Source of the DNA: an uncultured Pseudomonadota bacterium | GTDB taxonomy: Bacteria > Pseudomonadota > Gammaproteobacteria > Steroidobacterales > Steroidobacteraceae | DNA: 64,000 bases | NCBI GenBank assembly: GCA_903884105.1 | Contig: CAISDJ010000073.1 | Span: forward strand, 1-64,000 | Direction: 5' to 3' | Shown here: positions 2,452 to 64,000 of the stretch, piece after piece | How the letters are laid out: each line of letters opens with the position of its first letter | How positions within the stretch are numbered: the first letter of the stretch is position 1 | Notes under the pieces: generated by a model | Databases searched by the model: none | What the model saw: the letters and a program-made list of their open reading frames with translations, nothing else | What the model was told of the DNA's origin: nothing | Translations under genes and position numbers: made by a program

Positions 2452-2534
2452 GATGCTCTCCAGAATTGTGGGGAGGTATACCCGGCCGCGCCGCGCTGCG
2501 CAAGCGATGTAGCCGCATCGCGACGAACACTCAG

Positions 2535-2570: not shown

Positions 2571-2593
2571 TCTCTTCAACCGAAGGCGCCGTC

Positions 2594-4198: not shown

Positions 4199-4207
4199 CG
4201 CCGCAGG

Positions 4208-6895: not shown

Positions 6896-6982
6896 GGGTA
6901 ATCCTCGGTAACGTAACTTCGCGCTTCAGATCCGGCGTGGACAGCCTGGTGGCCGCCCACGCCGCGGGTTGCATTCTGCCAA

Positions 6983-8560: not shown

Positions 8561-8692
8561 GAAAATCTCCGATCCGGCCAGGCCGGGAATTGACCAAGAG
8601 GTAAAGGTGCTACAGCGCAATGCCAAACCGTCGTCTTGGAGACGTGGAAAGCTGTAGCTGGACAATCTGCCAAGGAAAGGTAGGCCAGTTGT

Positions 8693-8732
8693 CTTACAAC
8701 AAGGCGACGGCAAGATGACAATACGGTTACAG
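8693..8732 (-). promoter_or_regulatory. Pho-box array upstream of lipoprotein/TonB receptor
   Basis: On the minus strand 8732-8715 reads CTGTAAC-CGTA-TTGTCAT, a good Pho box. Two further 7-mers in the same 11-bp register, CCGTCGC and TTGTAAG (to 8693), are weaker. No convincing -10 follows at the expected distance, so the transcription start is uncertain. Confidence 0.7.
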
Positions 8733-8826
8733 CGGCGGGCGGCTCGACCTGCTGCCATCAACTGGAAAGGAGCGTGGATGAAAGCACGCCGGACTGATTG
8801 CGGCCCTGGAGATGGACGCCGGCCTG

Positions 8827-10137: not shown

Positions 10138-10832
10138 TACGCCACTCGAGTGGAGAAGCGGTAGCCGGAACCGCGGACAGTCTGGATGAACCGGTCGTAG
10201 CCGAAGACTTCGAGGGCCTTGCGCAACCGTCTGATATGGACGTCCACCGTTCTCTCCTCGACGTACACGTTGCCACCCCAGACGCGATCAAGGAGCTGAG
10301 CCCGGCTGTAGACCCGCTCCGGGTGCGTCATGAAGAAGGATAGCAGGCGGTACTCCGTCGGGCCGAGCTGGACTGTGCCTCCTCCCGCCATGACGCGATG
10401 GCTGGCGGCATCCAAAACCAGCCCGTCGGCATCGATCACATCCTCGGCTCCCGCCTGCGCAGTCCTTCGCAGCACAGCGTTGATGCGGGCCAGCAATTCG
10501 CGGGGCGAGAATGGCTTCGTCACGTAGTCGTCGGCACCACCCTCAAGACCCATTACCTTGTCCTGCTCTTCTGCGCGAGCCGTCAGCATGATGACCGGAA
10601 CTTCCTGGGTGTCCTTGTCACGCTTGAGAGCACGCGTGAGCTCAAGCCCGCTCATGTCAGGCAGCATCCAGTCGACGAGGACGAGGTCGGGCCGGTGGTC
10701 CGCGATACTCGCACGAGCGGCGCTGACATCCTCGACTTCGCGCACTTCAAATCCGCTGCGGCGCAATCCAAACGCAATCATCTCGCGTATGGGGCGTTCA
10801 TCTTCGACGATCAGGATCTGTTTGACTGCCAT
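10137..10832 (-). CDS. phoB: Phosphate regulon response regulator PhoB
   Basis: OmpR-family transcription factor that binds Pho boxes when phosphorylated by PhoR. I choose the ATG at 10832 (231 residues, family norm about 230); an in-frame TTG at 10862 would add ten residues without a better ribosome site. The receiver domain (about 3-118) has the acidic pair in VEDE, the phosphorylated Asp in [10 protein letters not shown], the conserved Thr (MLTARAEE) and Lys ([10 protein letters not shown]). The C-terminal winged helix (about 130-228) has the recognition helix region [15 protein letters not shown]. It is the regulator expected to act on the Pho boxes at 4181, 8715, 60574 and 60629. Confidence 0.96.
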
Positions 10833-10879
10833 GCGTTTCTGGGGATTCTTTATTGAGTTCAACTACTTGGAAATCTTTG

Positions 10880-13599: not shown

Positions 13600-13614
13600 A
13601 TCGCGATGCTGACT

Positions 13615-14199
13615 TCAGCGGAAGACGGCACGAAATCGCGCGTAGGCGGTGGCCCCAGGGGCCAACGGGTAACGCATCTGCCACCGGATATGCGTATAGG
13701 CATCGGGCGCAGCCGCTCGCTGGACACCTTTCGCGTCCCTGACAAGAAGTTCGCGAGCAGGCGCAAAGGTCACGCCGCCGTCGACGGAAAAGGAAAGGAG
13801 GGCCCCGGGAGCTGCCGCGGAATCGGCCAGGTAGCGGGTATTCGTGGGGACCGGCTTGGTAATCACCACGTTATGGGCAGCCTTCGAATCAAGGTTTCTG
13901 ATCTTCACCGTGTAGTAAACCACCTGACCCTCACGGATATCCGTGGCGGGGAGCCATTCCTTGGTCCGCGTGCCATCAGGCAGCGTCCGAGTCCCGAGAA
14001 CCGCCGCCACCATGTCCGTTTCAATAGTGACTACAGCCCCAGCTGGGCTCGAGGGCGGCGTGGGTACCGCAGCGTCAACGGCAGTGAGCCAAGCAACGGC
14101 TAGCAAGCCGACCGCAGATAGCCAAAAACAGGTGCGAAATGAAAGGACTAGAAACATGGACGCACTGTACGGGGCAATAGCAGTTTCCGACATCGACAT
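13615..14199 (-). CDS. Secreted protein with DUF11-like domain, function unknown
   Basis: About 194 residues. A hydrophobic export signal (SFRTCFWLSAVGLLAVAWLTAVDA) is followed by a compact beta-rich region with the pattern VVYYTVKIRNLDSKAAHNVV...PVPTNTRYLADSA, typical of conserved-repeat (DUF11-like) extracellular domains, here a single copy. The start is uncertain: the ATG at 14199 has GGAG nine bases upstream but leaves a long tail before the signal, while an ATG at 14157 would give a standard signal but has no ribosome site. It lies 15 bases upstream of the yoaA-like gene on the same strand. No function can be assigned. Confidence 0.7.
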   Translation of the reverse strand: MSMSETAIAPYSASMFLVLSFRTCFWLSAVGLLAVAWLTAVDAAVPTPPSSPAGAVVTIETDMVAAVLGTRTLPDGTRTKEWLPATDIREGQVVYYTVKIRNLDSKAAHNVVITKPVPTNTRYLADSAAAPGALLSFSVDGGVTFAPARELLVRDAKGVQRAAAPDAYTHIRWQMRYPLAPGATAYARFRAVFR

Positions 14200-14234
14200 C
14201 GACTTCGACTCCAAAGGGCTTCGATAGACGGCCA

Positions 14235-14263
14235 TTGACAGTCGTCCGAGTCAGAAGTATGCT
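14235..14263 (+). promoter_or_regulatory. Strong sigma70-type promoter for a small RNA
   Basis: TTGACA (14235-14240), a 17-base spacer and TATGCT (14258-14263). The predicted start is about 14270. No start codon with a ribosome site follows before the terminator at 14343, which points to a non-coding transcript. Confidence 0.75.
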
Positions 14264-14269
14264 GCGACG

Positions 14270-14371
14270 CATCAATGTTGCGGCGCGGTAAGTTTACTGC
14301 CTTAAGAGTAACTGATCGCGCCTCCTTACCGATCCCCCTGTTGCGCCCACCTTTGAGTGGGCGCTTTTTTT
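14270..14371 (+). ncRNA. Probable small RNA, two hairpins with a C-rich single-stranded linker
   Basis: A roughly 102-base unit bounded by a consensus-like promoter and an intrinsic terminator. Hairpin 1 pairs GGCGCG (14282-14287) with CGCGCC (14317-14322), and inside it AGTTTACT (14291-14298) with AGTAACT (14307-14313, one bulge). The linker 14323-14342 is C-rich and unpaired (TCCTTACCGATCCCCCTGTT), and the C-rich tract across the hairpin edge (CCTCCTTACC, 14321-14330) could pair with ribosome binding sites. The terminator hairpin closes the unit. I do not recognise a named RNA family. It stands directly upstream of pckG but has its own terminator, so it is probably a trans-acting RNA rather than a leader. 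Confidence 0.65.
14343..14371 (+). terminator. Intrinsic terminator of the small RNA
   Basis: A perfect stem GCGCCCAC/GTGGGCGC with loop CTTTGA is followed by seven T residues. It lies between the small-RNA promoter and the pckG promoter. Confidence 0.9.
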
Positions 14372-14386
14372 CGCGACCTTGTCGCA

Positions 14387-14414
14387 ATGACAGTCCACTG
14401 TCGATCGGTATAAT
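14387..14414 (+). promoter_or_regulatory. pckG promoter
   Basis: ATGACA (14387-14392, five of six to the -35 consensus), a 16-base spacer and a perfect TATAAT (14409-14414). The predicted start is near 14421, leaving a leader of about 195 bases before pckG. Confidence 0.75.
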
Positions 14415-14421
14415 CCCGCCC

Positions 14422-14456
14422 CTGCCCGAAGGCCCGGCCTACCCGGTGTCGGGCAG
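14422..14456 (+). repeat. Inverted repeat at the start of the pckG leader
   Basis: CTGCCCGA (14422-14429) and TCGGGCAG (14449-14456) are perfect complements around a 19-base GC-rich loop that includes GGCCCGGCC. It would form right at the 5' end of the pckG transcript. The rest of the leader (14457-14616) shows no ORF with a ribosome site. Confidence 0.45.
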
Positions 14457-14616
14457 CCGTTTCCAAAGCGTGGCTTCCCGCTGGCGGCACCCCCTTGGGT
14501 TGCGTGCCCCAAGCCCGTTCGAGACAGGCCGCGCTCGCGCCAGTGCGCAAACGCCAAGCATGTTGCGTGGCGGCACGGAATGTACAGTTTTCTTGGTCCA
14601 GGAGGCATGATTCGAA

Positions 14617-16383
14617 ATGAGCACGTCCAATGCGGCGCTGAAATTGGGTTCGTCCAGCAATGCAGCGCTGAATAACTGGGTCGATGAAGTTGCGCGCCTC
14701 ACGCAGCCTGATCGCATCCACTGGTGCACCGGTTCCGACGCCGAGAATGCCTCCCTCGTCAGCCAGATGCTCGCGTCGGGTGACCTCGTCAAGCTGAACG
14801 AAAAGACCCATCCCAACTGCTACCTGCACCGCTCGAATCCGACCGACGTCGCACGCGTCGAGCACCTCACATTCATCTGCACCGGCAATCGCGAGGATGC
14901 CGGCCCGAACAACCTGTGGATGGACCCTGCCGAAGCCAACGCGAAGATGGATGACCTGCTCCGCGGTTCAATGAAGGGGCGTACGCTGTATGTCATACCG
15001 TACTGCATGGGGCCGCTCGATTCGCCTCATTCGCGATGCGGTGTCGAGATCACCGACAGTGCCTACGTCGTCGCCAACATGCGCATCATGACGAACATGG
15101 GCGACGCCGCCCTCAAGCGGATCGAGCGCGAAGGCACGTTCGTCAAGGGTCTGCACTCGACGGGCGACCTCGACCCGAAGAAGCGCTTCATCATGCACTT
15201 CCCCGAAGAGCTGACGATCAAGAGCATTGGATCCGGTTACGGTGGCAACGCCCTGCTCGGCAAGAAGTGCCACGCGCTGCGCATTGCCAGCTGGCAGGCA
15301 CGTACGGAAGGTTGGCTCGCCGAGCACATGCTCATCATGGGCGTGCAGAATCCTCAAGGACAGGTTCACTACGTCGCCGCCGCATTCCCGTCCGCGTGCG
15401 GCAAGACAAACCTCGCCATGATGGTCCCACCCGCCTCCATGCCGGGCTGGAAGATCTGGACGATCGGCGACGACATCTGCTGGCTGCACGTCGACGGCGA
15501 AGGTCAGCTGCGTGCAATCAATCCCGAGACTGGTTACTTCGGCGTCGTTCCCGGCACGAACGCCAAGACCAATGCCAACGCTTACGAGACGATCAAAAAG
15601 GACACGATCTTCACGAACGTCGCAGTCACGGCTGACAACCAGCCGTGGTGGGAAGGACTGTCTGGGACACCTGCGCTCGACTGGCAGGGTAAGCCGTATT
15701 CCGGCAACGGTCCCGCAGCCCATCCGAATGCCCGTTTCACCGTATCGGCCAAGCTGAATCCTGCGTACTCGACGATGGCAGAGGCCCCCGAGGGCGTGCC
15801 GATTTCAGCGATCCTTTTTGGCGGCCGCCGCCGCGAAGTGCCGCCGCTGGTCTACCAGGCTCGCGACTGGGGCCATGGGGTACTCGTGGGTGCCGGCATG
15901 GCGTCCGAAACCACTGCCGCGGCGGTGGGCGAAGTCGGCATCGTCCGTCGTGACTCCATGGCAATGAAGCCGTTCTGCGGCTACAACTTCGCCGACTATT
16001 GGGCCCACTGGTTCTCGTTCGAGCAGCGAACCCAGAAGCTCCCGAAGGTGTTCCACGTCAACTGGTTCCGTCAGGACAAGAACGGCAAGTTCATGTGGCC
16101 GGGCTTTGGTGACAACCTGCGCGTGCTCAAGTGGATATTTGACCGCTGCGACAACAAGGTTGAGGCGCAGGATACGGCTATCGGCTATCTGCCTCATGCC
16201 AAGGATCTCGACGTATCCGGATTGAACCTGGATCCGGCCACGTTGGAGCAGCTACTGTCGATTGACGCAGCCGCCTGGCGTCATGAGATGGCCGACATCG
16301 GCAAATACCTCAACGACTTTGGCCAGCGCACTCCCGCGCGTTTGCGTGAGGAACACGCGAAAGTCACCCAACGACTGGGCTGA
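14617..16383 (+). CDS. pckG: Phosphoenolpyruvate carboxykinase (GTP)
   Basis: Cytoplasmic gluconeogenic enzyme converting oxaloacetate and GTP to phosphoenolpyruvate, CO2 and GDP. The 588 residues carry the GTP-family signature FPSACGKTNLAMM (P-loop plus reactive Cys), the metal-binding Asp pair in GDDICWLHVD, the substrate-binding YCMGPL and SRCGVEITD motifs, GSGYGGNALLGKKC and the C-terminal NWFRQDKNGKFMWPGFGDN. It is the GTP type, not the ATP type (PckA) of E. coli. AGGAGG lies upstream of the ATG with an 11-base gap. The gene is monocistronic, with its own promoter at 14387 and a strong terminator at 16423. Confidence 0.97.
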   Translation: MSTSNAALKLGSSSNAALNNWVDEVARLTQPDRIHWCTGSDAENASLVSQMLASGDLVKLNEKTHPNCYLHRSNPTDVARVEHLTFICTGNREDAGPNNLWMDPAEANAKMDDLLRGSMKGRTLYVIPYCMGPLDSPHSRCGVEITDSAYVVANMRIMTNMGDAALKRIEREGTFVKGLHSTGDLDPKKRFIMHFPEELTIKSIGSGYGGNALLGKKCHALRIASWQARTEGWLAEHMLIMGVQNPQGQVHYVAAAFPSACGKTNLAMMVPPASMPGWKIWTIGDDICWLHVDGEGQLRAINPETGYFGVVPGTNAKTNANAYETIKKDTIFTNVAVTADNQPWWEGLSGTPALDWQGKPYSGNGPAAHPNARFTVSAKLNPAYSTMAEAPEGVPISAILFGGRRREVPPLVYQARDWGHGVLVGAGMASETTAAAVGEVGIVRRDSMAMKPFCGYNFADYWAHWFSFEQRTQKLPKVFHVNWFRQDKNGKFMWPGFGDNLRVLKWIFDRCDNKVEAQDTAIGYLPHAKDLDVSGLNLDPATLEQLLSIDAAAWRHEMADIGKYLNDFGQRTPARLREEHAKVTQRLG

Positions 16384-52268: not shown

Positions 52269-52784
52269 TCAGCGCGGCTTTCCCGGGTCATCCGTCTCTT
52301 GTGGCGCGCCGCCCTGGCCGGCGTACACATATTTTTCATACAGGTAGTGCCTGAGCGTCCGGGACAGGTTGTCGCCGTCCGCTGTTTCGCGCACGGGGGC
52401 CGGCGTGCCATTGCGCCCACCGAGGCTGGACAGCCTGAGCTTGGCGTAGGACTGCTGGATGCCATTCATGGCAATGAGCTGGATGTCTTCCTGGTCGACG
52501 CGAATGTCTTCCTCGGCTCCATCGTTGATGATGCTCTCGAGACGGACCGCGTCGAGATCGAGGTAACGGAAGATTTCATTCCCGGACTCGACGAACACCG
52601 GCACGAGGCTGCGACCGCGGAGGCTGCTGTCATTCAGGGGCCCGAGTCGTGCCAGCATCGCCTTCACTGCCAGCCGGATGACGTCCGAATCCCGCACCCC
52701 GAGACGCTTGGCCAGCTTCTTGACGTTGCGGATGTCTCCCGAGCTCATGCGGATCGATACCGCCTGTTTCCGACTGTCCATCAT
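52269..52784 (-). CDS. Ribbon-helix-helix-like DNA-binding protein, possible EPS regulator
   Basis: A 171-residue protein with an N-terminal segment (about 8-47) of the ribbon-helix-helix type: a short strand QAVSIRMSS, then DIRNVKKLAKRLG and DSDVIRLAVKAMLARL. The rest (about 60-171) is charged, with VFVESGNEIFRYLDLDAVRL and a C-terminal Arg/Lys tail. The size is large for an Arc/MetJ-type repressor, so the C-terminus probably has its own role. It sits directly upstream of the nine-gene export operon, 117 bases before the OPX start, and could bind the element at 52237; this is inference from position. Confidence 0.65.
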   Translation of the reverse strand: MMDSRKQAVSIRMSSGDIRNVKKLAKRLGVRDSDVIRLAVKAMLARLGPLNDSSLRGRSLVPVFVESGNEIFRYLDLDAVRLESIINDGAEEDIRVDQEDIQLIAMNGIQQSYAKLRLSSLGGRNGTPAPVRETADGDNLSRTLRHYLYEKYVYAGQGGAPQETDDPGKPR

Positions 52785-52861: not shown

Positions 52862-53764
52862 TCAGTGCGCAGGCACCACAGCCGGCTTGCGACGCAGGCC
52901 GAACAATCCGAGCAACCCGGAGCCGAACAGCAGCGCGCCTGCGGGCAGAGGCACCGGCGACGCCTGCACAGGCGAGTACCCGCTGACGGCGATCAGCAAA
53001 TCCTGGAAATCGCGGTCGCCCCCATTCACCAGATCCTCCCAGGCGAGCAGGTAGCTGCCCTCGGGAAACACGAAATCGTCGTCCTGGCCGGGCTGGTTGC
53101 TGCGAAAGGTGCGCAGGTGATCCGTCCGATCCCCATTCAGCGCGCTATCACTGAAGAACACGTTGGTGGGGGTTCGCAGGTAGAAGCCGAACACCGAGCT
53201 GCCGAAGAGCGCGCTCTCGCTGATGCCGTTCGCTGTGGCGGTGAAGCGGAAGCCCGTGGGGCCTGCCTGCTGGATGGCCAGCGAGCTGGTCGCCCCCGGT
53301 CCCGCGAAGCCATAGAGCAGCGGTAGACGGGCCGCGGGCGACGAGCGGTCGTACACGCCGAAAATGCTGTACGGCGCATTGGACCCGCTCTCGAACAGCA
53401 GCGTGGACGATGCACCGGGCAGCGCGCTCCACTGCGAATCGCTGCCCTCGGCAAGCGCGTCACGTGTCGAGTTGAGAACGCCAGGCCCTACCTGCTTGTC
53501 GAGCAACCGCTGCAGCGACAGCTCATTCCTGACCGATGCCTCGGCGGTATTCTTGCCACCATCGGTCACGCCCCGTTCTTCGCGATCGCCGCCGCTGCGA
53601 AAATTGCGTGATTTGAAGTCATCGGCGCGGCTCGCCTCGGTGCTTCCGCCCTGCTGCCACCGCCCGTCCGGCCCCTGTGGAAGCGAAGTCGCCAACGCAG
53701 CGCCGGCAACAAGCGCGGCTGTGGCTCCGAGCGCGGCCGCGAGAATCAGTGCATTCGATGCCAT
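52862..53764 (-). CDS. VPLPA-CTERM sorted exoprotein with DUF4114-like domain
   Basis: Secreted protein of 300 residues from the ATG at 53764 (ribosome site GAAGGGG eight bases upstream). The signal peptide is about 1-25 (MASNALILAAALGATAALVA...). A DUF4114-like region near the C-terminal third contains FPEGSYLLAWEDLVNGGDRD followed by FQDLLIAVSGY, with acidic Ca-type loops. The C-terminus is the exosortase signal: VPLPAGALLFGSGLLGLFG then RRK, that is VPLPA motif, hydrophobic helix and basic end. It is expected to be processed by the XrtD-type exosortase at 29819. Ligand or structural role is unknown. Confidence 0.88.
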   Translation of the reverse strand: MASNALILAAALGATAALVAGAALATSLPQGPDGRWQQGGSTEASRADDFKSRNFRSGGDREERGVTDGGKNTAEASVRNELSLQRLLDKQVGPGVLNSTRDALAEGSDSQWSALPGASSTLLFESGSNAPYSIFGVYDRSSPAARLPLLYGFAGPGATSSLAIQQAGPTGFRFTATANGISESALFGSSVFGFYLRTPTNVFFSDSALNGDRTDHLRTFRSNQPGQDDDFVFPEGSYLLAWEDLVNGGDRDFQDLLIAVSGYSPVQASPVPLPAGALLFGSGLLGLFGLRRKPAVVPAH

Positions 53765-53817
53765 TAGCGACCCCTTCCACGGATGAAACGATCCGTCAAG
53801 GGAGATAGTCGCGAATT

Positions 53818-53837
53818 CACGTGACTGTTTGTTGAAG
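53818..53837 (-). promoter_or_regulatory. 20-bp element upstream of the first VPLPA gene
   Basis: The minus strand reads CTTCAACAAACAGTCACGTG, 54 bases before the ATG. Sixteen of 20 positions match the element at 54936-54917 upstream of the second VPLPA gene. It is not a known consensus to me. Confidence 0.5.
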
Positions 53838-53938
53838 GTCTTGTGAAACTCCAGCACCGGGAGCGGAGAGTTCGTCCGAACCTCCGCGCAAGGACCCATT
53901 GGGTCAGCTCTTTATCACCTCCGCGCGGGAGGCGTTTG

Positions 53939-53979: not shown

Positions 53980-54810
53980 TCAGGCCCTGCGCCGCCGGGC
54001 CAGCCCTCCAAATCCGAGCAGCCCCGAGGCCAGCAGCCAAGCGGCCGCAGGCAGGGGAACCGGCGTGATGTCCTTGACCAGCACAACGAAGTCCTGGAAA
54101 TCGCCGTCGTAGCCGCTGACAGAACTGCGCAGGTCCTCCCAGGCAAGGATGTACTGGGGCGACGCAAAGACGTCGCCCTCGAGAATCTCGGGGAGGCCCT
54201 GGACTTCGTCGATCCCGTTGTCCTGACCCAGGAACCGGGTGTTCGTGCCACGGTAGGCATACAGATGATCGGGTTGCGGCCCCGGATCGATGGCACCGGC
54301 CGGGCCCGGCGGGTTGGCCGCATTGGCTGCCGTGTTGCTGTAGAACGTCGTGCCCGTCGTCGGCACGAACAGGTAGAAGCCAAAGAGGGCGCTCGTGAAA
54401 TTGCCCTGCGTCGATCCGTTGACCCGCACGTCATATCCACCCGCGGACCCCGCGACGAACTCGATGGTCGCGGTGCTGCCTGCTGCGGCGCTGCCCTCGA
54501 AGATCCGCACCGAGCTGCCCGATACCGGATCGTACAGCCCGAACTGGTTGGTATTGGCAAAGCCGGCCAGCTCAAGCACGACCGTGGAGCTGGCGACACC
54601 CCCGGTTGTCCAGTAGCTGTCGGCCCCATCCGCCAGACGGTTGCCGACGGGTAATACACCGGCACCCAGCCAGGTATCGAAGCATTGCTGCAATGAACTT
54701 TCCGGCGGCCCCATGCTGCACGCAGCATTCGCTTCGCCCCCGATGCCGAGACCGAGCAGCGCGGCAACTGCGGCGAATAAAGGCACTCGAGAGCCCGGCA
54801 GGACGGTCAT
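53980..54810 (-). CDS. VPLPA-CTERM sorted exoprotein with DUF4114-like domain
   Basis: Secreted protein of about 276 residues from the ATG at 54810, with AGGGAA upstream. Signal peptide about 1-30 (MTVLPGSRVPLFAAVAALLG, cleavage near EANA-ACS), Cys pair near the mature N-terminus, then a beta-rich domain with ASPQYILAWEDLRSSVSGYD and GDFQDFVVLVKD (DUF4114-like). The C-terminus ends VPLPAAAWLLASGLLGFGG with an Arg-rich tail, the VPLPA-CTERM sorting signal. It is similar in design to the protein at 52862 but not a close copy, so the two are probably related members of one family. Confidence 0.88.
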   Translation of the reverse strand: MTVLPGSRVPLFAAVAALLGLGIGGEANAACSMGPPESSLQQCFDTWLGAGVLPVGNRLADGADSYWTTGGVASSTVVLELAGFANTNQFGLYDPVSGSSVRIFEGSAAAGSTATIEFVAGSAGGYDVRVNGSTQGNFTSALFGFYLFVPTTGTTFYSNTAANAANPPGPAGAIDPGPQPDHLYAYRGTNTRFLGQDNGIDEVQGLPEILEGDVFASPQYILAWEDLRSSVSGYDGDFQDFVVLVKDITPVPLPAAAWLLASGLLGFGGLARRRRA

Positions 54811-55243
54811 GTTCACTTCCCTTGTCTGACGGTCGAGGTCCGGTGAAGAACATCGCCGGTTGGCAAATCGCAGTGACTGCGGCTGTGGGGGAAGTCTGCA
54901 AGCGGCAGATGTTCGACAGGTGATCTTTTGTTGAAGAATTTTCTACGGAAACGTAGATAAATCAGATGCTTTTAGCGGTACTTTCGTATTTCACGCGTCG
55001 TTGCGTTCGTAACCCACTGGCGTGGCTTTCGTGTGACATAAGCAGGCTGGCGTCAGACACGAGGATTCGAGCGAACAGACGCCGCATCGCCATCTCATGG
55101 ACAGAAGGTGGCAATGAACGCGGAGGACACTGCATTGGCCCGCCCAGTGCGGGAAGTGAGCCCGCCGCGAGCGGGCTTGGGTCAGCAAACAGGAGCGTGG
55201 CCGGGATCCCTGCCGGCCACGTGTCCTGCACTTGAGTTGAGGA
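54811..55243. other. 433-bp intergenic region with promoter element and tandem hairpins
   Basis: It holds the VPLPA-gene element (54917-54936), a small CTACG-GAAA-CGTAG hairpin (54943-54956), and two stems downstream of the coiled-coil gene: AGCCCGC/GCGGGCT (55159-55177) and CGTGGCCGG/CCGGCCACG (55196-55221). The last two may end the 60.5-55.2 kb operon, although only a short T-rich stretch follows. No credible gene is seen here. Confidence 0.5.
54917..54936 (-). promoter_or_regulatory. 20-bp element upstream of the second VPLPA gene
   Basis: The minus strand reads CTTCAACAAAAGATCACCTG, 107 bases before the ATG. It shares CTTCAACAAA-N3-TCAC-N-TG with the element at 53837-53818. Confidence 0.5.
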
Positions 55244-55930
55244 CTACCTTGCGCCGGCTGGCGTCGAGGCAGCGTTTGCGGGCGCGGGGAGCGCCCCCTT
55301 CTGCTCACGTTCGACGCGCAACTCCTCGACGCGATACCGGTAGTCGTCGATGAGGTTATCGAGTCGGGCGCGCACGATACCGGTGATCCGCTCCTGCTCC
55401 GCGGCCCGCCCCCAGAAGCCACGATCTTCCAGGTGGTGAAGCATCTCGCTGTTGAGTTCATACAGGCCGACGTTGCGATCGATGCAGACCTTGAGATCCC
55501 GCTCGCGAGTGCCAAGCAGGTTGCGGGCTTCACTGCGCTCCAGCTCCGCGGTGCGCAGCTGATCAGTCGTTTCGCGGAACCGGGCCACCAGCTCCTGCAA
55601 CTGGGCGCGAGTGCGTTCGAGCGTTTCACCGGAAGCAGCAGTGGAACTGTTCAATTTCGCCGTTGCCGCTTCTGCGGATTGGGCGCGACGTTGCAGCCCC
55701 CCCTGCTCTGCTTGCAAGCGAGTGAGCTCCGCTTTGGCTGTGTCGAGCTCCTTCTGCAGCCGGTCGTTGTCGGCCTGCAGTGTCGTACGCTCCGCTGTCA
55801 CCTGCTGGAGCTGCTGCATGACGCGCGCGCCATCATTGCCGCTCCGCTGCGCCTGGCCCAGGGCCGTGCTCGCAGCGAGGACTGCCAGGCAGGCCACTGC
55901 CAATCTCGACTTGCCGCTGTTGGGGATCAT
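55244..55930 (-). CDS. Periplasmic coiled-coil protein of the TonB/porin operon
   Basis: A 228-residue exported protein from the ATG at 55930: signal peptide (MIPNSGKSRLAVACLAVLAA..., cleavage near LG-QAQ), a long coiled coil (about 35-130, MQQLQQVTAERTTLQADND and LRTAELERSEARNLLG), then a helical C-terminus with LYELNSEMLHHLEDRGFWGR. A FWGR-type end with coiled coil is seen in small periplasmic proteins of TonB loci. It starts 31 bases after the porin stop and is the last gene of the operon. A periplasmic scaffold between porin and TonB is a possibility, not shown. Confidence 0.75.
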   Translation of the reverse strand: MIPNSGKSRLAVACLAVLAASTALGQAQRSGNDGARVMQQLQQVTAERTTLQADNDRLQKELDTAKAELTRLQAEQGGLQRRAQSAEAATAKLNSSTAASGETLERTRAQLQELVARFRETTDQLRTAELERSEARNLLGTRERDLKVCIDRNVGLYELNSEMLHHLEDRGFWGRAAEQERITGIVRARLDNLIDDYRYRVEELRVEREQKGALPAPANAASTPAGAR

Positions 55931-55961
55931 GGCAACACCGTCGTGGATAGCGTCACGCGCG

Positions 55962-57596
55962 TCAGAACTGCGCATTGAGGTCGAGCTGCCAGACATCGAT
56001 GCCGAGCGGCGGACCATCGATCTCGTTGGCCGTGAGGTAACGGAGCCGCAGCCACGAACCACGCGTCAGTCCGAGATCGAATCCCAGCTGGTAGCCCTGG
56101 GTGTCAGTGCCGCCCAGCCTGAAGTCGGAATCGGTGAATGCATCGAGCACGGCATCGCGCTCGAGATAGCGATAGGAAATGAAGCCTCGCCACTGCCCGA
56201 GCCCGGAGAGCACCGGTCGGCCCACCGTCAGGCTGGCGTCATAGCCCTGCACTCTCGCGTCGGTCTTCACGCCAGTGCGGGCGAACACGTCTTCCGCCTT
56301 CCAGCCGATGTTCTTGACGTATTCCGCACCCAGCATCACGTGGTTGGCGCCAAAGGCCGCGACGTCGAGCAACAGGCTGGCCGTCGCAAGCTCGTAGTCG
56401 CCTGCCAGCGCAAAGCGGTTGGTCCCGGGATTGGCATCATTGCGGATGTCGAACAGCGAGTTGCCCTTCGTGACAAACTCGGGCGCGGTGAAATCCAGCA
56501 GCGTGTTATCGAAGGAATTACGGACGCCCGTGATGTTGCGATAGGCGAAGTAGGCCGCCGCGATCCGCAACGAGGAGTCGGAGCCGAGCGCAATCTCCGT
56601 ACCCAGTTGCCCGCCCAGCAACCACTTGTCCTTCGTGGACAATGCCACTTCCTGCAACGGGAACGCACCGACCGTCAGGAACAGGCTGCGTTCCATGTGC
56701 GCCGGGTCGCGGCCGGAAAGATCCATCGCGTAGGAGGCAGAGAAGCCCTCGAATCCGAGGTCGGTGTCCCAGACCAGTTCGCTCGTCGAGACGAAGGGAT
56801 TCGCGAAGCGCCCGAACCGCAGGTCGAGCTCGCGATCATGCATGCCATTGACGGGATTCCACAGGATCGCTGCGCGGTCGACATTGACGGTCCAGCGACC
56901 GCCATAGGTCCCCATCGTCTGGTTCGTGGAATTGGGCGTGCGCGCGTTGCCCGTGGCGAGCCGAATGTCCACGGTCGAGGAGTCCCCCACCTTGGCAGTC
57001 AGTCCGAGGCGTGCGCGTCCCACGGAACGCAGCCGGTCCTCCGTCGTGTTGAGCAATGCATCGATGCCGGCGGCGCCAACGCCACCTGCGCTGTTGACCG
57101 CATTGAAATCCAGATAGGCGTTGGTCGCGTTGCCTGCCGCATACACCGCTCCTTCGGCGCGCGCCCGCACGTCACCTGAAATCCGGACGCCAGTCAGCCA
57201 TTCCGGCAATGCCCCGGGAATGCCCCAGCGCTCCTCGCGCGCCTGGGCCATCACGTCCTTGACCACTTCCGGGCGGATCTCGCCGCGGACCCGCTCGCTG
57301 ATCTGCTGCTGGACGATCTCCGGCACGTAGGTGACCCGGACCGCATCCTTCTCGTCCGCCGCCTCGGCGTTGCGCGCCGCACTATCGCTGACCGCCTTCT
57401 CCTGTGCCGCTGCAACCATCGTGGCTGCCTGCTCGCGTGTCATGACGCCTTTCTGCACCAATGCTTCGAGCAGATTGATCACGGTGTTACGCACTTCCTC
57501 CAGTGCGTTCGCCTGCTCTGCGGCTTGCACGGGTTGTATGCTCGCACCCGCGAGCACGACTGACACCGCAAGGCCTGCAATCGATTTCTTCAACAT
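55962..57596 (-). CDS. Putative porin (Porin_5 type) in TonB-ExbBD operon
   Basis: Outer-membrane barrel of 544 residues. Signal peptide about 1-25 (MLKKSIAGLAVSVVLAGASI..., cleavage QA-AEQ), then a helical/coiled region (about 30-125, VRNTVINLLEALVQKGVMT) resembling the N-terminal part of trimeric porins, and a barrel from about 135 (VRISGDVRARAEGAVY, DRLRSVGRARLGLTAKVG) ending in LDLNAQF with terminal Phe. It has the same general architecture as the porin at 2594. It sits 22 bases after the TonB gene. Both porins appear under Pho boxes, so phosphate starvation is the likely signal. Confidence 0.85.
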   Translation of the reverse strand: MLKKSIAGLAVSVVLAGASIQPVQAAEQANALEEVRNTVINLLEALVQKGVMTREQAATMVAAAQEKAVSDSAARNAEAADEKDAVRVTYVPEIVQQQISERVRGEIRPEVVKDVMAQAREERWGIPGALPEWLTGVRISGDVRARAEGAVYAAGNATNAYLDFNAVNSAGGVGAAGIDALLNTTEDRLRSVGRARLGLTAKVGDSSTVDIRLATGNARTPNSTNQTMGTYGGRWTVNVDRAAILWNPVNGMHDRELDLRFGRFANPFVSTSELVWDTDLGFEGFSASYAMDLSGRDPAHMERSLFLTVGAFPLQEVALSTKDKWLLGGQLGTEIALGSDSSLRIAAAYFAYRNITGVRNSFDNTLLDFTAPEFVTKGNSLFDIRNDANPGTNRFALAGDYELATASLLLDVAAFGANHVMLGAEYVKNIGWKAEDVFARTGVKTDARVQGYDASLTVGRPVLSGLGQWRGFISYRYLERDAVLDAFTDSDFRLGGTDTQGYQLGFDLGLTRGSWLRLRYLTANEIDGPPLGIDVWQLDLNAQF

Positions 57597-57618
57597 GGTC
57601 GTATTCCAGAAAACATGT

Positions 57619-58266
57619 TCATCCCCGCGACACGATTCGGAGCGTCACCGGCTGCGGCATTTCAAGCGGCGGTGCATCGCGCATCCGGGCCACTCGCCCG
57701 AGTGCCTGCTCGATCGCGCCATCGAGCTCGCGATTGCCGGTCGACTGCGTCAGGGCAATTCTTTCGACGCGACCATCGGTCGTGAGCCACACACGGACCG
57801 TGACCTGGTAACTACCCTTGCGGACGCGCTCATCCTCGGACAACTTGTCGAGGATGCTGTCCTTGATCAGCGTCGTGTACCAGGCGAAGGCACTTCCGCC
57901 GCCACCAACGATGTCTCGCCCGCCACGGCGGGCCGCGAGACCGAATCCGTCCGAGCCCGCCACGCCATCGGCGTCGAGACCAAGCTGTTCTGCAGCCGGC
58001 GCATCGTCAGGCGGTGAATTCTCGGGCGCATCTTGCGGCAACGGCTCGTCGATCTTCTCTTCCGGCGGCGGCGGTGGCGGCGGTGGCTGATCCGGCGGCG
58101 GCGGTGGGCGCACGAGCTGCACCACCTGCGCAACTGCACGCGTCGGCTCGTCCTTCTTCTTCATCATGCCGCTCACCAGCCACACCAGGCCGGCCACGAC
58201 GGCAAGCACGACGACGGCGCCGATGGCACCCGGTACAAAGCGAGCGAACCGCTTCTGCCTGGGCAT
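57619..58266 (-). CDS. TonB-type energy transducer
   Basis: Inner-membrane anchored periplasmic protein of 215 residues that passes proton-motive-force energy to outer-membrane receptors. It has one N-terminal membrane segment (about 13-33, GAIGAVVVLAVVAGLVWLVS), a Pro-rich stretch (PPPPPDQPPPPPPPP then EEK), an acidic linker, and a C-terminal TonB domain (about 130-215, GSYQVTVRVWLTTDGRVERI and LGRVARMRDAPPLEMPQPV). The membrane segment lacks the Ser/His pair of E. coli TonB. It is placed between exbD (12-base gap) and the porin, so it belongs to this complex. Confidence 0.88.
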   Translation of the reverse strand: MPRQKRFARFVPGAIGAVVVLAVVAGLVWLVSGMMKKKDEPTRAVAQVVQLVRPPPPPDQPPPPPPPPEEKIDEPLPQDAPENSPPDDAPAAEQLGLDADGVAGSDGFGLAARRGGRDIVGGGGSAFAWYTTLIKDSILDKLSEDERVRKGSYQVTVRVWLTTDGRVERIALTQSTGNRELDGAIEQALGRVARMRDAPPLEMPQPVTLRIVSRG

Positions 58267-58278
58267 CGCGCTGTGGCC

Positions 58279-58686
58279 CTACTTCACAACGCGTTGCGTC
58301 ACGAGACCCAGCTGCCTGATCTCGAGCCGGCCGACGATGTCGAGCACATCGACGACCCTCTGGTACTGGATGGTCGAATCGGCTTTCACGATCACGGGCA
58401 GCTCCGGGTCGACCGCCTTGTACTGCTTGAGCAGGTTTTCGAGTTCCTCAAGCGTCACGGGGAACGTGTCCAGGTAGATCGTCCCGTCGGCAGTGATGGA
58501 GACTGCCTTGGTTTTCGGCTTGGCAATGGCTGGCGTCTCGCTGGCCTTTGGCAGATTCACGGTAATGCCCTGCACGGACGCCGTGGTCATGATGATGAAG
58601 ATCACCAGCAGCACGTACGCCAGGTCGAGCATGGGCGTGACGTTGATCTCGTCGTAGGCGTCCTTTTCTTCGGCTGATGCTGACAT
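58279..58686 (-). CDS. exbD: ExbD/TolR-type biopolymer transport protein
   Basis: Proton-channel partner of ExbB, 135 residues. One membrane segment (about 20-40) follows EINVTPMLDLAYVLLVIFI, with the essential acidic Asp21 placed as in E. coli ExbD Asp25. The periplasmic domain (about 65-130) has SITADGTIYLDTFPVTLEEL and VIVKADSTIQYQRVVDVLDI, typical ExbD motifs. It lies between the ExbB-like fusion (21-base gap) and TonB (12-base gap) in a tight operon. Confidence 0.93.
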   Translation of the reverse strand: MSASAEEKDAYDEINVTPMLDLAYVLLVIFIIMTTASVQGITVNLPKASETPAIAKPKTKAVSITADGTIYLDTFPVTLEELENLLKQYKAVDPELPVIVKADSTIQYQRVVDVLDIVGRLEIRQLGLVTQRVVK

Positions 58687-58707
58687 GGTGGCCTTGGCGC
58701 TATCGCG

Positions 58708-60528
58708 CTAGCTGTAGTGTTCTGCGACGCGCGTGACGAACTCGTCGATGAACACTCGCATGTCGGCGTTGATCTCCTTGATCTTGGTGTTCAGCCAGTT
58801 GTAGCCGAACAGCGCCGGGATCGCGACGGCGAGGCCAGCCACCGTGGCAGCCAGCGCGGCTGCAATGCCGGGTGCAATCGAGTTGACGTTGACGTCTCCG
58901 CTCGCGGCGATCGCGGCGAACGTGATCATGACGCCGACCACCGTGCCGAGCAGCCCGAGGAACGGGCCACCCGAGATGGCGATGGTCAGCAGCACCATGT
59001 TGGCCGAGAGCTTCTGTCCCATCCGGACTTGCGACGCGTCCATCGTTGCGCGGATCGCGGCAATCGCCTGTGGCGTGAGCGTCTTGACGGCACGTGTGCC
59101 CACGGAGGGCAGCCCGATGCGATCCGTCATTTCGTGGATGCCGTTGTGGTACAGACGGTAGACAGTCGACATGCGGAAGCGATTGTCTTGACCCTCTGCT
59201 CCCGGCGCGAAGGGCGAGCGGTCCAGCGCATCGTCCCCCTGCTCCTCGCCAGACTCCTTCTGGTCGAGATCAGTCGGGTCGCCTTTCAGCTTCGCAAACT
59301 CCCTGAGGAAGGCGACGTTCGCCCCCTGGATTCGCGTCAGGTAAACGGCCTTGGAGACCATGATCAGCATTGCGATCACGAACATCACGGCCAACACGAT
59401 GATGACGACCCAGCCGTCGATCGTGACGTTCTTCATCGTCACGACGAAGTATGAAGTCTCGCCCGCTTCCTTCTGCGTATCGCCACCGTAGGCAACCAGC
59501 AGGGACTCGGCACTCTGGCCCCGCACCGATGCCTTGATCCATTCGGCAGGGCGCGCCGTATTGGCAACCTGTACTTCGTCCACCTGTGCCGTCAGCCCAT
59601 TGCTGCCACTGGCCGCGGCACCAATCGTGAACGTACCCGCCACTTCCATCAGCGTTGCAGGGCTCGCCGCCAGTTCGTCGCCGTCGACGAACAGCGTCAG
59701 ACGACCCGCGGTCGCCGTCATTGCAAGGTGGTGCCAGCGGCCCGGAACGAGCACATCGGCGGTCTGGGCCACGGTCGGATCAGCGAGGGTGCCTGCCCTG
59801 CCGAACACCTGCGTCCCGTTGATGCCGAGGGCAAGGACAGTGGCCTGGTCCTCAAGTGCCATGACGTACGCATTGGCTTGCGGACCGTCGATGCGCACCC
59901 ACGCCGAGAGCGTCGCACCGTTGGCTGGGACGAACCGTAATGAGGCGCTCGAGGGGACGGTCACGGACGAAGCCCCAGTCAGCGTGGCGCCTCCTGCGAT
60001 CAGCGATGCCGCGTTCTTCGCTGCGGAGGAAGTCGCCGAGTTGTTGCCAAAGGCCGTGGCATCCGCAGCGCCTGCGCCGTCACCGCCGAAGTGATACGTC
60101 AGTACCTGCTTGGCATCGAAGGTGCCCGCCACATCCGCCCCGGCGGGAGCATCCTTGTTGCCGTAGTAGAGAAAGATCTTCTCGGTGTTCGTGCCCCCGG
60201 CAAGGCGCGGCACCTTGACCCAGAGGAAGGCCATCTGCTCGACCGGGTCATAGCGCTCGATGTGGAACTTGAGGGGCGTCTTGTCATCCCCCGCCACGAA
60301 CCTCAGGTCACTGCCGTCGGGCTTGGTGTCGGCAAAGTAGCCGAAGTTGCCGATGTGCAACCGGATGAGCACGGGGACGTCAATCGCCGTGCCCGCTACG
60401 TCGGCTCCGGCCGCAGTCAGGTCCAGCGTCAGTTCCTTGCGGAAGTTCCACTCTTCGTTCCACCAGGCGTGGCTGACAGCCGGCACAACCGTCAGAAGAA
60501 CGAGCAACAGCCTGCGCACCGCATTCAT
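58708..60528 (-). CDS. DUF2341/LamG-like periplasmic region fused to ExbB/TolQ proton channel
   Basis: A 606-residue fusion. A signal peptide (about 1-21, ending SHA-WWN) exports residues 22-370: a DUF2341-like region (about 22-130, WWNEEWNFRKELTLDLTAAG) and a LamG/concanavalin-like sandwich (about 180-335, LSAWVRIDGPQANAYVMALE and GRWHHLAMTATAGRLTLFVD). Then come the three ExbB membrane segments: 372-395, 511-540 with the channel signature ISGGPFLGLLGTVVGVMITF, and 552-580, with cytoplasmic loop 396-510. Ordinary ExbB is about 240 residues, so about 370 residues of possible carbohydrate-binding sensor are added. Two Pho boxes lie upstream. The combination implies that ligand binding may be tied to channel activity; this is inference. 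Confidence 0.88.
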   Translation of the reverse strand: MNAVRRLLLVLLTVVPAVSHAWWNEEWNFRKELTLDLTAAGADVAGTAIDVPVLIRLHIGNFGYFADTKPDGSDLRFVAGDDKTPLKFHIERYDPVEQMAFLWVKVPRLAGGTNTEKIFLYYGNKDAPAGADVAGTFDAKQVLTYHFGGDGAGAADATAFGNNSATSSAAKNAASLIAGGATLTGASSVTVPSSASLRFVPANGATLSAWVRIDGPQANAYVMALEDQATVLALGINGTQVFGRAGTLADPTVAQTADVLVPGRWHHLAMTATAGRLTLFVDGDELAASPATLMEVAGTFTIGAAASGSNGLTAQVDEVQVANTARPAEWIKASVRGQSAESLLVAYGGDTQKEAGETSYFVVTMKNVTIDGWVVIIVLAVMFVIAMLIMVSKAVYLTRIQGANVAFLREFAKLKGDPTDLDQKESGEEQGDDALDRSPFAPGAEGQDNRFRMSTVYRLYHNGIHEMTDRIGLPSVGTRAVKTLTPQAIAAIRATMDASQVRMGQKLSANMVLLTIAISGGPFLGLLGTVVGVMITFAAIAASGDVNVNSIAPGIAAALAATVAGLAVAIPALFGYNWLNTKIKEINADMRVFIDEFVTRVAEHYS

Positions 60529-60557
60529 CGTGATTCGATCCCTCTTGAGAGGCGGCG

Positions 60558-60646
60558 ATTATGGAAACGCGCGGTGATGGTTTTATGACAACGTCAGCGG
60601 AATCGCCGCGACGCGGCAATTTGAGCGGATGACGAACGTATGACAC
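60558..60646 (-). promoter_or_regulatory. Two Pho boxes in phase and -10 of the ExbB-fusion operon
   Basis: On the minus strand, distal box GTGTCAT-ACGT-TCGTCAT (60646-60629) and proximal box TTGTCAT-AAAA-CCATCAC (60591-60574) start exactly 55 bases apart, five turns of 11. Ten bases after the proximal box is CATAAT (60563-60558), five of six to the -10 consensus, with transcription expected near 60551 and a leader of about 23 bases. The layout matches the porin promoter at 4167-4198. Confidence 0.8.
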
Positions 60647-60789: not shown

Positions 60790-61305
60790 ATGGCCACGAA
60801 ACAGAAGAAGCTGGATGTCACTTCGGCAGGCTTGCAGGCCGCAGCCCGCAAGGCTGCAGCCCATGCGGATCACATCAGGAAACAGGTTCACCTGGCGAAG
60901 GCTGAACTCAAGGCCGTGCGGAAGGCGTTCAAGGACCTGAAGAAGGCGGCGAAGCATGCCCGCGCTGCGGCGGACATGGCTGTGAAGGCAGCGAAGGCCG
61001 AACTCAAGAAGGCCGCCTCCGCCAAGCGCGCCGGCAGAAGCAAGCCAAAGGCTGCGAAGAAGAAGAAGTCCGGGGCGGGGAGCAGCGCCAAAGCGGCACG
61101 GCCGGCGCCCGCGGGCGCCAAGATGACCCAAGCTCCCGCACAGAAGCACGTTGCCCGCAAAGTGCGGCTTCCCAAGCCCGCTCTGAAAAAGCCGGCGGTC
61201 GCCGCCAAAGCCAAACGCAAGGCGAAGACCGCGGCGCCGGTCGTGGCAGCACCGGCGCAGAACTCAGGGGTCACTCCGACCGCCAGCAAGCCCACCAGCG
61301 CCTGA
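60790..61305 (+). CDS. Histone H1-like Lys/Ala-rich protein
   Basis: A 171-residue, very basic protein. Residues 1-90 predict a long helix with heptad-like Ala/Lys spacing (AARKAAAHADHIRKQVHLAK, DLKKAAKHARAAADMAVKAA). Residues 90-171 are Lys/Ala/Pro repeats (PKAAKKKKSG, KAKRKAKTAAPVVAAP) as in eukaryotic H1 tails and AlgP-like bacterial proteins. It has GGAG six bases before the ATG. It is divergent from the ExbB operon. It probably binds DNA or polyanions; a specific role is unknown. Confidence 0.8.
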   Translation: MATKQKKLDVTSAGLQAAARKAAAHADHIRKQVHLAKAELKAVRKAFKDLKKAAKHARAAADMAVKAAKAELKKAASAKRAGRSKPKAAKKKKSGAGSSAKAARPAPAGAKMTQAPAQKHVARKVRLPKPALKKPAVAAKAKRKAKTAAPVVAAPAQNSGVTPTASKPTSA

Positions 61306-62605: not shown

Positions 62606-64000
62606 TCAGGCTTCAGTCAGAGGCTGGCCAGCCGGCATCACGAATGAACGAACGACCCGGGCGCCGGAACGGGGGTTGGTCGCGTCGTCCAGTCCCACCA
62701 TGTCGCCACGCAACAGGTCGGTACCGATGCTGAGCCTCAAGTAACCGCGATACTGGGCGCTGCCGTACAGCACGTTCGAATTGATGTCGACAAGCGATTT
62801 GATCATGCCCACGCCGGGCTGTCGGGACGTGATCGACGTGGTGACCAGCTCGCTCGCGACGACCGGTGTGTCCTCGCGGCCAGGGACGGCATTCAGCCGC
62901 CCGGCGAAGAACGCGTGAATGTCACCGCTCAGGATCAGCGGATTCCTGACCTGCGGCTGGGCCACCGCAGCGAGCAATCGCCGCCGCGCAGCTGCGTAGC
63001 CGTTCCAGCTGTCGGTATAGAACTGCTCACCCGGCCCGGCCAGTTCATCGAGGTACGACATCATCACGCCTTGCGCGAACAGGTTCCAGCGCGCGTCGGC
63101 TGATTGCAGCCGCTGTGCGAGCCAGGCCTCCTGCCGGAAGCCGAGCATCGTGCGACTCTCGTCCGTCACCTCGGCGCAGTTTTCCACTCGCCGCGATCCG
63201 CGAATTCCCGGGGCGCTGCAGGCATGCGGTGACCGGAACTGCCTGCCATCCAGCATGTAAAACGACGCCAGTGGACCGAAATTGCGCTGCTGGTACAGGC
63301 GCATTGCAGACCCGAACGGCACGGCGCTTCGCGGCACAGGCAAGTGCTCGTAGTACGCCTTCATGGCGGCCGCGCGCCGCAGCCTGAACAAGGCCGGATC
63401 GTCATCCTGCTCGGAGATGTCTCCGGTGTAGTCGTTGTCGACCTCATGATCGTCCCAGGTGCAGAGCCAGGGCGCTGCTGCGTGGGCAGCCTGCAGGTCC
63501 GGATCGAGCCGATACAGCGAGTGCCGGATCCGGTAGTCCTCGAGCGTCTGGGCTTCGCTCGCATCATGCCGGCGCACCGGATCGGCGCCGTTGCCGCCTT
63601 CATAGATGTAGTCGCCGACATGGACGATCAGGTCAGGCGCGTCGGCCACCATGTGGCGATAGGCTGCGTAGTAACCGTGCTCGTAGTTCTGGCAGGACGC
63701 TACCGCCACTTTGAGCGAATCGCGCTTCGAATCTGCAGCGGGTGCCGTGTGCGTCCGACCGACGGGACTCTGCTGTCCCATCGCAGTGAAGCGGTACCAG
63801 TAAGGCCGATCCGGTTCCAGGCCGCTCACTTCGACATGGACAGAATGCGCCCAGTCGGGCGTCGCATAGCTGATGCCACTCGCCCGGACGTCCCGCAGGG
63901 CTTCATCTGCGGCAACCACCCAATTGACGGGAATCGCCGAGGCTGGCATTCCGCCATCAGGCGAGAGCGGAATCGGCGCGAGGCGGGTCCACACCACGCA
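62606..64000 (-). CDS. phoD: PhoD-type alkaline phosphatase/phosphodiesterase (N-terminus outside window)
   Basis: Calcium/iron-dependent exported phosphatase that releases phosphate from phosphoesters. The frame is open through base 64000, so the start and Tat signal lie beyond; 464 residues are visible. After VVWTRLAP and the N-terminal beta-domain (WYRFTAMGQQSPVGRT) come the metal and substrate motifs: VAVASCQNYEHGYYAAY, LIVHVGDYIYEGG, CTWDDHEVDNDYTG and LILSGDIHAFFAGRL. These are the conserved PhoD/PhoX-like phosphatase set for the PF09423 family. It completes the phosphate theme of the window; whether it has a Pho box cannot be seen. Stop at 62606. Confidence 0.93.
   Translation of the reverse strand, partial: CVVWTRLAPIPLSPDGGMPASAIPVNWVVAADEALRDVRASGISYATPDWAHSVHVEVSGLEPDRPYWYRFTAMGQQSPVGRTHTAPAADSKRDSLKVAVASCQNYEHGYYAAYRHMVADAPDLIVHVGDYIYEGGNGADPVRRHDASEAQTLEDYRIRHSLYRLDPDLQAAHAAAPWLCTWDDHEVDNDYTGDISEQDDDPALFRLRRAAAMKAYYEHLPVPRSAVPFGSAMRLYQQRNFGPLASFYMLDGRQFRSPHACSAPGIRGSRRVENCAEVTDESRTMLGFRQEAWLAQRLQSADARWNLFAQGVMMSYLDELAGPGEQFYTDSWNGYAAARRRLLAAVAQPQVRNPLILSGDIHAFFAGRLNAVPGREDTPVVASELVTTSITSRQPGVGMIKSLVDINSNVLYGSAQYRGYLRLSIGTDLLRGDMVGLDDATNPRSGARVVRSFVMPAGQPLTEA

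Follow-up and report, generated by a model that had tools for sequence, protein, structure and literature searches.

The closest described relative of the locus examined here is the PUMA3/sigma-VreI regulon of Pseudomonas aeruginosa (pdtA-phdA-pdtB-exbB2-exbD2-tonB4-PA0696-PA0697-PA0698-PA0699), and PUMA3 clusters have been noted to go with two-partner secretion (TPS) genes, exbBD, and PA0696 homologs (Llamas 2009, PMC2729926). In P. aeruginosa, PhoB binds the phdA promoter, from which phdA, pdtB, exbB2, exbD2, tonB4, and PA0696-PA0701 are transcribed; expression of phdA-pdtB-exbB2D2-tonB4-PA0696 to PA0701 needs phoB and low phosphate, and both sigma-VreI and PhoB are reported to drive these genes under phosphate limitation (PMC4971064). 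PA0690, PA0696, and PA0698 appear in a table of proteins showing the strongest enrichment at low phosphate (PMC9769906). The cluster was described in 2020 as a putative TonB system and called uncharacterized (PMC7035377), and DUF2341 was listed in 2025 as an N-terminal appendage of unknown function on generic ion transporter channel proteins (PMC12505986). In passages of the open-licence literature, we found no mechanism for DUF2341-ExbB, PdtA, or exbB2-exbD2-tonB4 systems, and a search of the open-licence literature for DUF3739 returned nothing. Here we analyzed a 64,000-nucleotide stretch (the window; positions 1 to 64,000 of contig CAISDJ010000073.1, assembly GCA_903884105.1) of an uncultured Steroidobacteraceae bacterium, which carries a minus-strand operon of five genes at 55244-60528, identified by open reading frame (ORF) reading and encoding, in transcription order, an ExbB fusion, ExbD, TonB, a Porin_5 porin, and a coiled-coil protein. 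Gene kinds and gene order are the same as in P. aeruginosa, where PA0693 is presumably fused as well. Unlike in the P. aeruginosa regulon, the window genome has a PstS-like gene of another subfamily ahead of tpsB, and its exbB is the first gene of a separate run. Among related loci (designated L, and genomes G), L130 shows the PUMA3 layout, with FecR, sigma factor, and STN genes divergent from the set, and such genes adjoin the fused ExbB in L035 too. Vre regulators, YbjN, and PPIase were seen in both of these loci; searched with one reference each (E <= 0.01), the window contig (110,565 bases) gave no VreI-, VreR-, PPIase-, or YbjN-type match, and the VreA reference matched only the TonB gene there.

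Two further systems help to place the operon. All three proteins of the TonB-ExbB-ExbD complex are encoded, but the ExbB differs by about 340 extra residues predicted to be periplasmic, and the operon provides a porin, rather than a plugged receptor, as outer-membrane partner. In the HxuABC system of Haemophilus influenzae, TpsA is secreted and cooperates with an outer-membrane importer that depends on TonB (PMC5422565); unlike in the present set, however, this importer is a true TonB-dependent transporter and its ligand is heme.

Organization and conservation of the operon

A preliminary description of this DNA, made from the sequence alone, had proposed five tightly spaced genes combining a TonB complex with a porin, and the ORFs and Pfam assignments agree, with gaps of 21, 12, 22, and 31 bases in transcription order; a longer mechanical ORF for the coiled-coil gene (to 56062) would overlap the porin. 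The hallmarks of the TonB-ExbB-ExbD complex are present, namely the ExbB/TolQ channel helices, the membrane aspartate of ExbD, and the TonB C-terminal domain. TonB was identified by Pfam TonB_2 alone (E 4e-9), and no solved structure matched it in a PDB sequence search up to E 0.1. The fusion starts with a likely signal peptide (around residues 1-21), followed by a conserved WW and by beta-rich domains; about 340 residues separate the signal peptide from the first hydrophobic membrane segment (around residue 361), and a long helix from about residue 360 is followed by two more. Because signal peptide, beta-rich domains, and membrane helices come in this order and the channel aligns with TolQ/ExbB, the extra domain should sit in the periplasm. 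Judged from sequence and structure model, the N-terminal region is therefore very probably exported, and the large periplasmic DUF2341/LamG-like region that had been claimed for this ExbB stands.

Gene order was compared across another 37 fused-ExbB loci (E < 1e-50; second copies were counted, and the Bacteroidetes locus L008 was excluded beforehand). The exbD, tonB, porin, and coiled-coil genes lie downstream of exbB on the same strand and within 6 kb in 30 of the 37, and their order by distance is identical in all 30 complete loci except L050, where overlapping ORFs blur exbD versus tonB. The operon is thus conserved as one unit, as the preliminary description required of its proposal. Seven loci lack the full set: L003 and L006 stop at contig ends, L034 has no porin, in L053 the porin and coiled-coil genes are located in another part of the contig (L085), and L057, L060, and L081 (at 12251-15095) are second copies consisting of the fused exbB-exbD-tonB triad, with no adjacent porin or coiled coil. 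A Pfam scan of 10 proteins revealed no telling alternative partner near the second copies L057 and L060 or among other neighbors.

Joint inheritance with a two-partner secretion pair and a PstS-like family

A single TpsB and a single TPS domain were found in the window genome; both lie on the contig of the window, just beyond the window itself, and PhoD (62606-64186) and three divergent genes separate the TPS half from the operon. TpsB and TpsA near exbBD-tonB-porin-coiled coil, the combination by which a Pdt-type cluster is recognized, therefore occur together in this genome. A ShlB/FhaC-type TpsB is annotated next to this five-gene set in plasmid records of Methylosinus, K. quasipneumoniae, and Cupriavidus; a filamentous hemagglutinin is annotated in the Methylosinus and K. 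quasipneumoniae records, with PPIase and YbjN genes in the same stretch. Six Pseudomonadaceae loci (L122, L124, L126, L128, L129, and L130) carry TpsB-ExbB-ExbD-TonB-porin-coiled coil together, with a PPIase. Over the 37 comparison loci, a same-strand tpsA or tpsB ORF ends at most 500 bp from the exbB ORF in 21. Two Klebsiella plasmid records carry the TPS-Ton-porin set, L036 (a conjugative plasmid of Klebsiella quasipneumoniae) and the K. pneumoniae record L037, in which the tpsA and tpsB ORFs are fragmented and the PPIase gene looks broken too.

The strength of this association was assessed across the class by searching the same 274 genomes with five queries. The fused ExbB (E <= 1e-40) was found in 17 genomes, DUF3739 above its cut-off in 18 (with G223 below the cut-off in addition), and a TPS domain in 94; among 37 genomes matching Porin_5 at all, 19 had a full-length match (E <= 1e-140, a cut of our own), and the PstS-like profile (E <= 1e-10) matched 17 genomes, all within these 19, and none of the 255 without the porin. 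As 13 of the 17 genomes had supplied profile rows, the informative part of the PstS-like result consists of four new genomes and the 255 empty ones. Fused ExbB and DUF3739 occur together in 16 genomes, fused ExbB without DUF3739 in 1, DUF3739 without fused ExbB in 2, and neither in 255 (Fisher p 8e-23); the corresponding counts for DUF3739 and the porin are 18, 0, 1, and 255 (Fisher p 3e-27). Among the 78 genomes that have a TPS domain without DUF3739, 77 lack the fused ExbB, the sole exception being G104. In the two DUF3739 genomes without an ExbB match, G101 and G200, the contigs start partway through the operon, and exceptions also fall in incomplete genomes, that is G104 (85% complete; no DUF3739, no PstS-like protein) and G221 (82%; no PstS-like protein). 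The fusion was also found in 19 of 248 genomes of the family of G162, which we took as Pseudomonadaceae because of a strong OprF match (E 1e-77). The operon is almost certainly linked in function to the TPS pair. As far as literature searches go, the strict co-inheritance with the DUF3739 TpsA and the PstS-like family is new, as are the two conserved handles discussed below. The preliminary description identified the operon correctly but overlooked the known P. aeruginosa counterpart as well as the TPS pair and PstS-like gene that lie just past the edge of the window.

An iterated profile places the PstS-like family in 13 loci including the window contig; a genome search added Povalibacter, G150, and four of five further genomes, whereas G104 gave no match. 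In Povalibacter uvarum DSM 26723, the fused exbB operon adjoins TpsA, and the contig carries a PhoD-like and a PstS-like gene too. Against the PDB, the profile of the 13 members matched phosphate-binding proteins of the PstS type, 4ecf at E 1e-4 and E. coli PstS at E 0.29. All 13 share an invariant R-x3-S-G-T (R312, S316, G317, and T318) that aligns with R135, S139, G140, and T141 of E. coli PstS (1a54), which we take to be phosphate ligands. In the Pseudomonadaceae locus L123, an ORF cut by the end of the stretch lies beside a 4200-aa TpsA; it matches PBP_like_2 clearly (E 1e-19) and the iterated profile weakly (3e-7 in a small ORF set), and therefore represents a PstS-superfamily protein of another subfamily. 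For comparison, the P. aeruginosa genes lapA and lapB (PA0688, PA0689) precede pdtA (PA0690) by number (PMC9769906), and low-mass Pseudomonas alkaline phosphatases have been grouped with PstS in one superfamily (PMC7922408), LapA presumably being one of them.

Phosphate context and neighboring genes

The preliminary description placed the operon under PhoB boxes. Scored against the consensus CTGTCAT-N4-CTGTCAT, the upstream region does hold an 11/14 and a 10/14 site, but random 250-bp pieces of the contig contain a site of at least 11/14 in 3.2% of cases and, in 1.3%, a separate same-strand site of at least 10/14 as well, so that with a chance level of 1-3% the boxes are suggestive and not proof. 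Co-occurrence of Pho boxes with the gene order, which had been suggested as a check, did not emerge from a survey of the 250 bp upstream of 30 exbB, 20 tpsB, and 13 PstS-like genes (the window genome's included) against a background of 150 random same-locus pieces: p <= 0.05 was reached by two exbB regions (the window's own and that of L049), three tpsB regions, and no PstS-like region, which amounts to 1 of 29 exbB and 3 of 19 tpsB genes in relatives, a test weakened by the fact that many exbB genes sit within a longer operon. The bioinformatic case for a conserved Pho box is thus weak, whereas the experimental case in P. aeruginosa is strong. The phosphate link itself is supported by the PstS-like partner and by the published PhoB control of the P. 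aeruginosa counterpart (PMC4971064), and a phosphate-related role of the system is likely. 

The window also contains phoB and phoR (8827-10862), as part of a cluster at 1702-10862 with the order phoB-phoR-unknown 626-aa protein-TonB-dependent receptor-Porin_5-like porin-phoU, in which Pho-box-like sites lie at 4181-4198 (12/14; the box of this second porin) and 8715-8732 (11/14). Closer to the operon, a small protein weakly like ribbon-helix-helix regulators (52269-52784) belongs to a family found near the system in seven loci (this one, L053, L056, L076, L077, L081, and L083), and may be compared with phdA of the P. aeruginosa cluster. VPLPA/PEP-CTERM-like proteins are encoded beside the system (window 52862-53899 and 53980-54816; contig 77986-78783), with DUF4114 clear in one and weak in one, and such genes are near the system in L047, L074, L077, L085, and L088 too. 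Divergent from the operon, the gene at 60790-61305 encodes a lysine/alanine-rich protein that looks histone-H1-like by eye and has no NCBIfam match; ArsC-like and aquaporin-like genes come after it. Coordinates are collected in Table 1.

Table 1. Features of the operon, its upstream region, and its partner genes (window coordinates unless the contig is named)
Feature	Coordinates	Strand	Basis or remark
ExbB fusion, 606 aa: signal peptide, DUF2341, LamG/ConA-like domain, three-helix ExbB/TolQ channel	58708..60528	-	ORF, Pfam, model, structure alignment
DUF2341 segment of the fusion, residues 71-138	60115..60318	-	Pfam
LamG (Laminin_G_3) segment of the fusion, residues 185-331	59536..59976	-	Pfam; best-modeled part of the fold
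MotA/TolQ/ExbB channel segment (MotA_ExbB), residues 487-590	58759..59070	-	Pfam; aligned to solved TolQ and ExbB
ExbD, 135 aa; NVTPMLD versus NVTPFID in solved ExbD	58279..58686	-	Pfam; structure alignment
TonB, 215 aa; TonB_2 C-terminal domain and proline-rich linker	57619..58266	-	Pfam
Porin_5 porin, 544 aa; signal peptide, helical extension at the N-terminus, 16 long strands (low-confidence model)	55962..57596	-	Pfam E 8e-153; model
Putative TonB-box-like motif VRVTYVP, porin extension residues 86-92	57321..57341	-	
Coiled-coil protein, 228 aa, likely signal peptide; PA0697-like by position	55244..55930	-	
Pho-box-like site GTGTCATACGTTCGTCAT, 11/14	60629..60646	-	
Weaker Pho-box-like site TTGTCATAAAACCATCAC, 10/14	60574..60591	-	
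PhoD-like alkaline phosphatase	62606..64000, continuing to contig base 64186	-	
TpsA, 3427 aa; TPS domain 69-319, DUF3739 3242-3350	contig 64255-74538, beyond window	same strand as operon	
TpsB	contig 74546-76174, beyond window	same strand as operon	
PstS-like protein, 547 aa	contig 76255-77898, before TpsB, beyond window	same strand as operon	

Conserved handles and models of function

Two conserved elements could connect the motor to its partners. In alignment and model, the N-terminal extension of the operon porins runs from two helices through a variable linker to the motif V-R-V-x-Y-V-P and another helix, which precedes the barrel. The strict pattern occurs within the first 260 residues of 24 of 27 operon porins, and the remaining three, read in the alignment, have VRVQFVP (L054; a strict match beyond the search range, the ORF being extended upstream) or the variants VRVPYVS (L038) and KHVSYVP (L035). 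It is present in all six Pseudomonadaceae porins and in none of 11 control porins (Porin_5-like, outside such operons, and chosen by us: ten partial Porin_5 matches plus the window's 2594-4072), a comparison that is not motif-specific because the controls lack the whole extension. The position and composition of the motif would fit a TonB box. With the porin model, Foldseek matches were porins (OmpM1 first, OprO ninth, OprP 25th), and a PDB sequence search with the porin gave no match up to E 1. The second element is the C-terminus of TpsA, an Ala/Ser-rich linker followed by a conserved strand such as LTVEVIGFG, detected by pattern in 19 of 22 proteins; the misses are L037 (broken gene), L085 (variant LMVEILAFG), and L081 (not a TpsA). 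None of ten control TpsA without DUF3739 has this tail, these being regions of our choice from the upper part of the TPS-domain list with the longest ORF taken as TpsA without further check, and one of them (L110) being cut by a contig end. TonB or the LamG domain could hold either the porin motif or the TpsA tail, or both of them.

We tentatively favor a reading, itself somewhat short of an even chance, in which the operon supplies a phosphate-starvation system with its motor in the inner membrane and its pore in the outer membrane, the TPS pair and the PstS-like protein being the other half of the system and import being driven by protons. TpsB would export TpsA (about 3,400 residues, with C-terminal DUF3739), which would remain on the cell surface, its C-terminal tail pointing into the periplasm, and present phosphate-bearing ligands. 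ExbB-ExbD would use the proton gradient, and TonB would grip the VRVxYVP strand of the porin extension; the porin would thereby actively import phosphate or a phosphate-bearing ligand, which the PstS-like protein would take over, either at the surface or in the periplasm. The ring of LamG domains on an ExbB pentamer would most likely serve as a docking site for a partner, be it the TpsA tail, the porin, or the coiled-coil protein. Action of TonB on the porin for import, taken as a step of its own and read from the sequences, is plausible at slightly less than even likelihood.

Several observations weigh against this import model. Gene linkage was observed, but the transport step is one that we infer. 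By family, the porin is not a TonB-dependent transporter, as Pfam finds Porin_5 only and no Plug domain, and the low-confidence model shows 16 long strands, not 22. Its motif may be a structural strand of the extension rather than a TonB ligand, the TpsA tail is an equally good candidate handle, and the patterns for both were written after the alignments had been viewed, the control porins moreover lacking the entire extension. Both structure models are of low confidence, with a mean predicted local distance difference test (pLDDT) score of 63 for the fusion and 56 for the porin. The identity of the PstS-like family is moderate; Pfam PBP_like_2 matches 4 of its 13 members and not the window genome's own. 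This family was absent at E <= 0.001 from four Pseudomonadaceae genomes, three of which (G381, G395, and G426) have the fused ExbB, so that another PstS-superfamily protein would have to substitute in that branch. Upstream Pho boxes are rare in relatives, not or barely above background. The second copies consisting of fused ExbB-ExbD-TonB only, together with the porin-less L034, indicate that the motor has other uses. Finally, P. aeruginosa PA0695 and PA0696 mutants were reported to be as virulent as the wild type in zebrafish (PMC2729926).

The strongest rival, although rather unlikely, is that the Ton motor acts on TpsA, with TonB or the LamG ring holding the tail and driving export, anchoring, or release via TpsB, and with the porin as a helper or plug. 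The restriction of the tail to DUF3739-type TpsA (19 of 22 versus 0 of 10), the way in which the fused ExbB tracks these proteins and not TPS domains generally, and the proximity of tpsA or tpsB to exbB in 21 of 37 loci all speak for it; by eye, the tail (e.g. LTVEVIGFG) also resembles the EIIVLG stretch of the window's TonB-dependent receptor. It leaves the porin and the PstS-like protein unexplained, however, and TpsB transporters elsewhere work without added energy. This reading and the import model differ in the effects expected of an exbB deletion. A proton-powered trans-envelope phosphate machine, in which a TpsA surface fiber would catch phosphate-bearing ligands, TonB would handle both the tail and the porin extension, the LamG ring would form a periplasmic hub, and the porin would be actively opened, is likewise rather unlikely.

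Less probable still is a Tol-Pal-like machine for general envelope stability, induced by phosphate starvation, whose LamG domain would bind peptidoglycan or another envelope polymer. Against solved structures, the channel indeed scores TolQ (E 1e-15) over ExbB (E 6e-10), and the NCBIfam scores, all below cut-offs, favor tolQ over exbB and tolR (89 bits) over ExbD (69 bits). On the other hand, the ExbD protein is nearer to solved ExbD (61 bits, with the NVTPxxD membrane start aligned) than to TolR (40 bits), Pfam identifies none of the five operon proteins as Pal, TolB, or CpoB, and the strict link to TpsA, porin, and PstS-like genes is not what such a machine would lead one to expect. The reading offered in the preliminary description, in which glycan binding to the LamG domain would gate the channel and serve envelope remodeling, is very improbable. 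It draws on the LamG family match and on the LamG fold as the best-modeled part of the fusion (pLDDT 76-94 for residues 181-330), but over 32 aligned rows conservation is concentrated in the DUF2341 part and the channel, and the LamG part is more variable; the Foldseek matches of the fusion, generic LamG-like domains (arabinanase, clostridial neurotoxin binding domains, trans-sialidase) and TolQ, indicate fold class only. An ordinary operon serving a TonB-dependent receptor was rejected, there being no such receptor in the unit, and a chance neighborhood was rejected on the conserved-locus and co-occurrence counts.

Phosphate porins are thought to be passive. If the trans-envelope machine outlined above is real, it would, to our knowledge, provide the first case of TonB gating a porin rather than a plugged receptor, and also the first energy-coupled two-partner secretion system. 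The joint inheritance of TPS pair, Ton motor, porin, and PstS-like protein gives a concrete, testable model of active outer-membrane phosphate uptake for a set of genes that has had no assigned function, that is present in 17-19 of 274 genomes of the class and, by its fused ExbB, in 19 of 248 Pseudomonadaceae genomes as well as in records of Burkholderia, Cupriavidus, Methylosinus, and Klebsiella, and to which some of the most strongly enriched proteins of P. aeruginosa under phosphate limitation belong.

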